Positions 54,302 through 56,419 of a stretch of 64,000 nucleotides of DNA are shown here, in pieces. The notes under the pieces are model-generated. The model did no database searches. It was not told the DNA's origin and was given only the letters and a program-made list of their open reading frames with translations. Position numbers and translations under genes: made by a program. Each line of letters begins with the position of its first letter. Position 1 is the first letter of the stretch. Where the stretch lies: assembly GCA_902812465.1 (NCBI GenBank), contig CADDZE010000019.1:1-64000 (forward strand). Direction: 5' to 3'. This stretch comes from Acidobacteriota bacterium (GTDB lineage Bacteria > Acidobacteriota > Terriglobia > UBA7540).

Positions 54302-54607
54302 ATGTCGCTTGAAGCGTTAGGTATGATCGAGACCAAGGGACTGGTGGGGGCCATCGAGGCCGCCGATGCCATGGTGAAGGCCGCCAACGTCGTCTTGATC
54401 GGCAAGGAGTACATCGGCGCTGGCTATGTGACGGTGATGGTGCGCGGGGACGTGGGTGCCGTGAAGGCGGCAACGGACGCAGGCGCCGCGGCCGCCCGGC
54501 GTGTGGGGGAGCTCGTCAGCGTGCACGTGATCCCGCGCCCGCACAGCGAGGCCGAAAAGCTTCTGCCTGGCGGCTCGCTTTCCGGCAAGAAGGGTGCAAG
54601 TTCATAG
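54302..54607 (+). CDS. Bacterial microcompartment hexameric shell protein (BMC-H, EutM/PduA-like)
   Basis: 101 residues, one BMC fold: [20 protein letters not shown], the edge lysine in [13 protein letters not shown], pore loop [19 protein letters not shown], the long helix [18 protein letters not shown], and [12 protein letters not shown] with the conserved Arg-Pro-His at the hexamer edge. The IGAG pore loop is small, suiting a polar metabolite. The 15-residue C-terminal tail ([14 protein letters not shown]) is Ser/Gly/Lys-rich. GGGGAGG lies four bases upstream of the ATG. It is followed after 42 bases by an acylating aldehyde dehydrogenase. No pentamer (EutN/CcmL) or trimer shell gene is in the window. 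Confidence 0.95.
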
Positions 54608-54649: not shown

Positions 54650-56419
54650 ATGGATCAGGACCTCCAATCCATTCAAGAAGCACGCAACCTCATCGAGAAG
54701 GCGGCCGAAGCGCAACAGGTCTTGGCGCGCTTTTCCCAAGCGCAGGTGGACACGGTCGTTGAAGCGTGCGCGCACTCCGCCGAGCAGGCCGCCGAGCCCT
54801 TGGCGCGCCTGGCGGTTGAGGAGACTACCTACGGTGTCGTGGCCGATAAGGTAGAGAAGAACCTCTTCAGTGCCCGCGACGTCTATCGCGCGATCAAGGA
54901 CATGAAGACCGTGGGAGTGATCCGGGAGGATGCTGAGGCAGGCGTCGTGGAAATTGCGGTGCCGGCGGGCGTCGTCGCCGCCATCATTCCTTGCACCAAC
55001 CCCACTTCCACCGCGATTTATAAAGTTCTCATCGCGCTCAAGGGGCGCAACACCATTGTGATGAGCCCACACCCTAGCGCCGTCCGCTGCATCCTGGAGA
55101 CGGCGCGGGTGCTGCATGAAGCGGCGCAGAAGGCTGGCGCCCCTGAAGGATGCATCGGCTGCCTGAGCTTACCGACCATGGAAGCGACGCGCGAGCTGAT
55201 GCAGCACCGCTCTACGTCCATTATTCTGGCCACGGGTGGCGCTGGCCTGGTACGCGCCGCTTATAGTTCGGGCAAGCCGGCCCTGGGCGTCGGACCAGGC
55301 AACGTGCCGGCTTACGTTCACACCTCGGCCAACATCCCGAAGGCGGTTGCGGACGTTCTGACTGGCAAATGTTTTGACAATGGCACCATCTGCTCCTCCG
55401 AGCAGCACATGGTGGTGGACCGCGCGATTGCTAACGCCGTGCGGGCAGAGACGGTCCGCCAGGGCGGCTTCTTTCTCAGCACCGACCAGGCCAAAGCGCT
55501 GGCGCGCGTCCTCATCCGCCCGGATTTTCGCGTGAATTCAAAGTTAGTGGGCCAGTCGGCCGAGCGCGTGGCCCGGGCGGCAGGGTTCCCGGTACCCGCT
55601 GGAACGCGCGTGCTGGTGGCGCCGCTCGAGGGCGTCGGCCGCGAGCATCCGCTCTCGGCGGAGAAGCTATCGCCGGTCCTCTCCTTCTCCGTGGTGAAGG
55701 ACTGGCGCGAAGCCATCGACGTGTGCCGCCGGCTGCTGGAATTCGGTGGCATGGGCCACACCATGGCCATCCACGCCACGGACGACAGCGTGATCCGTGA
55801 GATGGCGCTGGCCCTGCCCGCCTTTCGCCTGGTGGTGAACACGCCCGCGCCGCACGGCTCGATTGGCTACTCGACGGGCTTGTTTCCCGCCATGTCCCTC
55901 GGCTGCGGAACGCCCGGCAACAACGTGGTCTCCGACAATATCTCGCCGATGCATCTCATCAACATCAAGCGCTTGGCGTATGAGCGCCGCCCGGTGAATG
56001 CCGCTCGCCTAGGGGAGACTGGGGAGGTCTCAGCCGCTTCGCCCCCGCCTGGAAGGCCCCACCCCGAGGTGGGGAGCGCGTCCTCAACCACGGCTTCGGA
56101 TCGTGAGATCATCTCGCGCGTCGTCGCGAAGTTGCTAGCGGGCCGCCGTCAAGCGGCTGGCTCGCCCGCGCGTGCCTCGGCTCCGAATGCGCCCGCAGCC
56201 GGAGCATCGGGTCCTTCCGAGGCCGCTGGAAGTGAATCGCACGCATCGGCCAACCAGTCCTCTAACCCTCCCTCCCTGCGGCCGCAGGAATTTGTCTCCG
56301 AATCGGACGTCCGCCTCGCCATCACCCAGGGTCGCAAGATAGTCATTGGGCCGCGCACGATCATTACTCCGGCGGCGAAGGACATGGGCGAGGCCTCCGG
56401 AGTCTTCGTCATGCAGTAA
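54650..56419 (+). CDS. CoA-acylating aldehyde dehydrogenase (PduP/EutE-like) with encapsulation helix and C-terminal module
   Basis: 589 residues, against about 460-500 for PduP/EutE. The core (1-450) converts an aldehyde to acyl-CoA with NAD: AIIPCTNPTSTAIYKVLIAL, ALGVGPGNVPAYV, catalytic C248 in CFDNGTICSSEQHMVV and LGCGTPGNNVVSDNI. After it, a linker leads to an amphipathic helix (residues 483-500, DREIISRVVAKLLAGRR) of the type that targets enzymes to microcompartment shells, then an Ala/Ser/Pro-rich linker and a 44-residue C-terminal module (EFVSESDVRLAITQGRKIVI, TIITPAAKDMGEASGVFV) of unknown role. It sits directly after the BMC-H gene, so encapsulation is well supported. The upstream aldehyde-producing enzyme is not obvious in the window. 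Confidence 0.93.
   Translation: MDQDLQSIQEARNLIEKAAEAQQVLARFSQAQVDTVVEACAHSAEQAAEPLARLAVEETTYGVVADKVEKNLFSARDVYRAIKDMKTVGVIREDAEAGVVEIAVPAGVVAAIIPCTNPTSTAIYKVLIALKGRNTIVMSPHPSAVRCILETARVLHEAAQKAGAPEGCIGCLSLPTMEATRELMQHRSTSIILATGGAGLVRAAYSSGKPALGVGPGNVPAYVHTSANIPKAVADVLTGKCFDNGTICSSEQHMVVDRAIANAVRAETVRQGGFFLSTDQAKALARVLIRPDFRVNSKLVGQSAERVARAAGFPVPAGTRVLVAPLEGVGREHPLSAEKLSPVLSFSVVKDWREAIDVCRRLLEFGGMGHTMAIHATDDSVIREMALALPAFRLVVNTPAPHGSIGYSTGLFPAMSLGCGTPGNNVVSDNISPMHLINIKRLAYERRPVNAARLGETGEVSAASPPPGRPHPEVGSASSTTASDREIISRVVAKLLAGRRQAAGSPARASAPNAPAAGASGPSEAAGSESHASANQSSNPPSLRPQEFVSESDVRLAITQGRKIVIGPRTIITPAAKDMGEASGVFVMQ

Follow-up and report, generated by a model that had tools for sequence, protein, structure and literature searches.

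The linkers that join cargo to the shell of a BMC have so far been described separately for each kind of organelle: EutQ for Eut, PduB and PduM for Pdu, and CsoS2 and CcmN for carboxysomes. In Salmonella, residues 1-99 of EutQ bridge shell and cargo, with H1/H2 (residues 9-41) associating with the shell, residues 42-61 forming a flexible tether and H3/H4 binding the encapsulation peptides (EPs) of cargo proteins (PMC12487888, 2025). Deletion of residues 9-41 leaves the shell apart from the cargo while EutQ itself stays with the cargo (PMC12487888), and EutM is lost in a pulldown when EutQ lacks residues 1-100 (PMC4827028). Loss of PduM causes a partial separation of shell and core (PMC9132943), and according to PMC12108088 no homology is known for PduM beyond Pdu MCPs. 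EPs, for their part, are known at N- or C-termini (Sutter 2021, PMC8217296).

The window, that is, the whole stretch of 64,000 nucleotides analysed from an Acidobacteriota genome, encodes a CoA-acylating aldehyde dehydrogenase (ALDH) with a long C-terminal extension (Table 1). On balance we consider it probable that the last 44 residues form a domain that docks on the inside of the BMC shell and that a helix further upstream joins the core, the ALDH being at once cargo and shell-core linker. Residues 2-453 match the acetylating acetaldehyde dehydrogenase family TIGR02518 better than any other family, with a score (608.4 bits) slightly under the curated cut-off of 620.1. The nearest solved structures are 5j78 and 3k9d, and Aldedh is the sole Pfam match up to an E value of 10, a scan in which the EutQ cupin domain (PF06249) was absent. 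The enzyme may work like the linker part of EutQ, yet it is no member of the EutQ family. In 60 of the 62 loci with enough upstream sequence for this to be judged, the ALDH gene is immediately preceded on its own strand by a BMC-H gene, usually at a distance of less than 200 bases.

Table 1. Features of the ALDH gene and of related loci (positions without a locus label are those of the window).
Feature	Position	Strand	Evidence
CoA-acylating aldehyde dehydrogenase, 589 aa including the C-terminal extension	54650..56419	+	TIGR02518 1e-182
BMC-H shell protein, satellite operon partner	54302..54607	+	Pfam BMC 4.5e-29, EutM-like
ALDH catalytic domain, residues 1-445	54650..55984	+	TIGR02518, nearest structures, AlphaFold2
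Linker 1, variable, mostly disordered, residues 446-483	55985..56098	+	mean column entropy 2.66 bits; pLDDT <50 over 457-482
Encapsulation-peptide-like helix, residues 484-501	56099..56152	+	AlphaFold2 helix; mean column entropy 1.91 bits; L496 nearly invariant
Linker 2, disordered Ala/Ser/Pro, residues 502-545	56153..56284	+	pLDDT <50 over 500-539; mean column entropy 2.81 bits
EutQ-H1/H2-type module (proposed shell anchor), residues 546-589	56285..56416	+	pLDDT 97.6; mean column entropy 1.14 bits; EutQ/EutT/TIGR02536 homology
In-frame TGA + CTG sites	L164:5938-5940, L199:2225-2227, L207:5932-5934, L196:2136-2138, L074 (G076), L250-L274, L278		
SelB in source genome	G000:C116:78-1976		over cut-off
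N-terminal module carriers	L109:5451-6647; L110:6067-6816; L111, L113, L114, L115, L116		class II aldolase, RpiB, RpiB-like, DeoC

Full-length AlphaFold2 predictions (50 sequences) resolve the extension into an 18-residue helix (block pLDDT about 65-71) with disorder on both sides, and a folded module that begins at residue 545 (blocks 85-97). Predicted alone (60 sequences), the module is a compact terminal beta-alpha-beta-alpha-beta unit with helices at 551-560 and 574-583 and a mean pLDDT of 97.6. The preliminary description of this DNA had read the end of the chain as an Ala/Ser/Pro stretch followed by a compact 44-residue module running to the stop, which agrees with the disordered linker and the folded residues 546-589, and had held that a disordered, unconserved module would speak against docking; the fold is predicted with confidence, and the module is conserved. 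Mean column entropy over 50 sequences is 1.14 bits in the module and 1.10 bits in the ALDH domain, with higher values in the helix and the two linkers (Table 1): the module is kept as strongly as the catalytic domain, while the linkers drift. This set had been fetched through the module itself; among relatives fetched with the whole protein and not the module, the module ends 53 of 53 distinct complete tails, while in G076, an additional row, an in-frame stop comes before it.

The helix had been described beforehand as amphipathic, EP-like and internal. A helix is indeed predicted there, and it is not terminal, linker and module coming after it; its hydrophobic moment, however, lends no support, at 0.296 against a mean of 0.308 for its own shuffles (p about 0.5), and the case for an amphipathic helix is carried instead by where it sits and by four conserved hydrophobic residues, I488, V492, L495 and L496. 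The assignment as an EP, a class of amphipathic helices of 15-20 residues attached by a flexible linker, is accordingly a structural and positional one.

Searches with module profiles led to known BMC proteins. Against 17 E. coli eut proteins, the top two matches were EutQ (residues 8-39) and EutT (3-40). When 29 modules were compared with 18,950 NCBIfam models, only four models were matched by more than two of them, namely TIGR02536 (21 modules), EutQ (8) and two PduM models (5); the NCBIfam segment most matched by ALDH, EutQ and EutT modules is the C-terminus of TIGR02536 (profile about 162-205 of 207), and on the NCBIfam PduM profile the module family falls at positions about 111-158. A scan of 1301 ORFs from seven outside BMC regions put BMC genes in each of the top seven places, with Enterococcus EutQ first at 1.3e-8, while column-shuffled profiles reached 0.04 at best in 20 control runs. 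A profile of 12 non-ALDH modules picked the ALDH modules out of 9058 ORFs (1e-14 to 4e-6; a single extra match came at 0.09) and, on five further regions, found two PduM C-termini (E 0.002 and 0.006); it gave no convincing module in two alpha-carboxysome loci. By hhalign, the ALDH and non-ALDH module sets matched at 98.5%, and the ALDH module and PduM, compared directly, at 4.7%. The profile sets partly overlap the sequences that they detect, the 1301-ORF, 9058-ORF and five-region searches being the least circular, and the enterobacterial comparisons were drawn from annotated records. The homology to the EutQ N-terminus (residues 9-41) is strong at the level of sequence comparison; the putative link to PduM is weak when taken directly and runs via TIGR02536-type flavoproteins.

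Beyond these families, the module matched no Pfam family (best IF-2, 0.085) and nothing significant in the PDB by sequence, and fold searches gave at best a Foldseek E of 0.34 and a VIA Z of at most 4.5 (IF2/eIF5B domains and a Mur-ligase-type enzyme). Kinship with the latter folds was set aside, the arrangement being a common one and the scores weak.

Across 297 Acidobacteriota genomes, a confident module is present in 97, all of which carry a BMC-H gene, and 34 BMC-positive genomes lack it (Fisher p about 2e-49 for co-occurrence, relatedness uncorrected; two doubtful matches, E 0.006 and 0.009, were excluded from the 97). The preliminary description had foreseen that a module residing mainly in proteins without BMC context would refute a docking role, and this did not occur, BMC shell genes being found in all 97 carrier genomes. 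The ALDH is the sole match of the module profile in the source genome, where the profile found no second copy.

The profile searches also placed the module in roughly ten further families of BMC proteins. Its presence on other BMC-linked enzymes had been suggested beforehand, and is borne out, as far as sequence can show, by EutQ, EutT, TIGR02536, RpiB, DeoC, aldolase, PduL and malate dehydrogenase. In other Acidobacteriota the matches are weaker, and they include modules at the N-terminus of class II aldolase, RpiB, an RpiB-like protein and DeoC (Table 1); class II aldolase, RpiB and DeoC are typical enzymes of SPU or PVM-like BMCs. The same weak list holds ORFs apparently unrelated to BMCs (L112, L117), which we read as noise. 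On a Methylibium petroleiphilum plasmid, a malate dehydrogenase encoded in a BMC locus (L216:17286-18584) has an N-terminal module (1.3e-8 with the non-ALDH profile) and a long Ala/Pro/Ser linker. EutT and some RpiB carriers are without an obvious EP. In Acetoanaerobium, a protein of roughly 90 residues made essentially of module and EP-like helix adjoins PduL (L212:22034-22306 and L212:21099-22001), and this PduL itself bears an EP at one end and the module at the other, C-terminal one.

As to the organelle, contig C4 of the source genome carries three BMC-P genes (PF03319) and one BMC-H gene together with a class II aldolase (L003:6771-7556, PF00596 6.5e-49) whose tail, ...SQEELEGLVAEVLERLKAKG, was judged EP-like by eye. 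The ALDH lies on C19, as does a second BMC-H gene, and the draft assembly does not give the actual distance between this contig and the main locus. In a check for hydroxyacid dehydrogenases (PF00389/PF02826), the neighbouring gene examined came out as a Glu/Leu dehydrogenase. No PTAC/PduL (PF06130) was found in the source genome, even though its ALDH belongs to the CoA-acylating type, nor did the portions of that genome examined show any BMC-T gene. The locus agrees with the ACI type, which has been described with a satellite AldDh (Sutter 2021, PMC8217296): shared with the source genome are a class II aldolase whose C-terminus is EP-like, the triplet of BMC-P, the presence of BMC-H and the placing of the AldDh at a locus of its own. 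The same study assigns a C-terminal EP to type I AldDhs and, in its accessible part, makes no mention of a further module beyond the EP, whereas the source ALDH has one.

The relatives of this gene include a group with an unusual arrangement. In 25 Bryobacterales-type genomes (12 genera, family f5), one in-frame UGA follows the last EP helix and precedes the module; the source ALDH gene is without such a stop. The codon directly after the UGA is CUG in 25 of 25 cases (CTG, never ATG, GTG or TTG), and the ALDH tree gathers the 24 stop rows shown into a single 100/100 clade; this clade has 25 rows, and the remaining one, nested within it, has no stop. Past the stop, the module has a mean pN of 0.127 and a mean pS of 0.494 (ratio 0.256), indicative of purifying selection. 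Selection on a module beyond the UGA suggests programmed readthrough, which is the best reading of these genes and would give a shell-anchored and a free ALDH from one gene.

Other accounts of the UGA were considered. A sequencing error is excluded, as 25 genomes share the stop and its context. Insertion of selenocysteine is disfavoured, not excluded: no consensus hairpin was found, which argues against it, none of the 20 stop loci examined had an Rfam match of note, folding z averaged +0.12 with no value under -2, and SelB was also found without the stop, exceeding the cut-off in 24 of 25 stop genomes and in 46 of 55 comparison genomes (source genome included). Reinitiation at the CUG is disfavoured by the invariance of the CTG and by the base at -10, the third of a conserved GGN codon, which is never the A of a Shine-Dalgarno-type signal. 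Two further observations concern the tails themselves. Those of family f5 (L220-L289) mostly have two EP-like helices ahead of the module, and the ALDH may therefore be multivalent for the core. In a single case (L167:5785-5787, equivalent to L087, G269), a TAA comes right after the ALDH domain with EP and module open in frame, possibly reflecting a pseudogene or an error.

In the arrangement that we propose, helix 484-501 would serve as an EP and tie the enzyme into the cargo core, the Ala/Ser/Pro stretch would be the tether between helix and module, and the module at the C-terminus would bind the inner face of the shell. The ALDH would then combine the roles of cargo and linker, the latter being filled by EutQ in Eut and by PduM/PduB in Pdu organelles; given a module that anchors to the shell, it probably acts as its own shell-to-cargo connector. 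The binding of the module to the shell, probably to the co-encoded BMC-H, and that of the helix to the core are both inferred, in the absence of binding data. The earlier suggestion of a second docking element or an anchor on the inner surface of the shell finds support, as far as sequence can provide it, in the alignment with EutQ 8-39, the BMC-only occurrence within the phylum and the predicted fold. The evidence on EutQ comes from Salmonella, identity is low across the module, and binding by EutQ involved EutL besides EutM.

Most carriers combine the module with an EP-like helix, which is compatible with mutual binding, and PduM acts chiefly as part of the core (PMC9132943); the module could thus be an element that builds the core by binding EPs or other cargo and not the shell. 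We regard this as unlikely in light of the work on EutQ, where the cargo-peptide site is H3/H4 (62-99), NMR with the EutC peptide shifts nothing in H1/H2, and protein without residues 9-41 remains with the cargo (PMC12487888). Quite unlikely, too, is a role that has nothing to do with docking, for instance in oligomerisation, in the timing of assembly or in binding a cofactor or small molecule common to BMC enzymes. The chemical diversity of the carrier enzymes would allow it, as would a sole fold resemblance that is weak and points to IF2/eIF5B domains and a Mur-ligase-type enzyme, but the carriers have no obvious substrate or cofactor in common, residues 9-41 of EutQ have a mapped shell-association phenotype, and the occurrence of the module tracks BMC shell genes.

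A second targeting tag that is merely redundant, with no particular partner in the shell, would need neither fold nor conservation, whereas the module is predicted to fold and is as well conserved as the catalytic domain, and it is the helix that drifts. The presence of EPs at either terminus (PMC8217296) and of two EP-like helices in many Bryobacterales-type tails can be cited in favour of such a tag, which nonetheless appears very improbable to us. As for a tail devoid of function, nothing beyond its terminal position recommends the idea, and conservation refutes it: the entropy equals that of the enzyme core, the module is present in all complete tails, and the pN/pS ratio stays low even past an in-frame stop. 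We give it practically no credence, and retain a shell-docking module as the preferred interpretation.

A wider proposal can be made only tentatively. The module may be a general metabolosome shell anchor, unrecognised as far as open-access full text shows, carried at either end by EutQ, EutT, PduM, TIGR02536, PduL, RpiB, DeoC, aldolase, malate dehydrogenase and the ACI AldDh, with UGA-CUG readthrough in the Bryobacterales-type clade tethering only a fraction of the AldDh, in the manner of CsoS2A/B. If the domain is indeed shared, it would connect EutQ, PduM and TIGR02536 across separate solutions to the fastening of contents to shells, and would name likely linkers in BMC types without one assigned (ACI, SPU, PVM-like). 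The 44-residue module is also a candidate tag for engineering, and if the UGA-CUG is read through, it would be an instance of recoding in bacteria that determines how much of the enzyme is anchored and how much is free.

Set beside the known linkers, the ALDH tail is most readily compared with Salmonella EutQ (residues 1-99, H1-H4), in that both have a shell-binding part, a flexible tether and a core-binding helical part, the assignment in the ALDH being predicted. The order is mirrored: the module is N-terminal in EutQ, ahead of the cupin, and C-terminal in the ALDH. PduM likewise joins an EP to a module-like segment, the EP being N-terminal and the segment C-terminal, an architecture that fits its phenotype of partial shell-core separation (PMC9132943, PMC12108088); it differs in having no known enzyme domain and only weak similarity to the ALDH module. 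The TIGR02536 proteins (ethanolamine utilization) differ in lacking an ALDH domain. CsoS2 of the alpha-carboxysome shares no sequence similarity that we could find with the ALDH module, but in CsoS2 one chain ties cargo and shell, as is proposed for the ALDH. The likeness may extend to the Bryobacterales-type clade, as the CsoS2 frameshift also yields forms with and without a shell-binding C-terminus (PMC11481516): CsoS2A/B arise by ribosomal frameshifting, and the two forms of the ALDH would arise by way of an in-frame stop.
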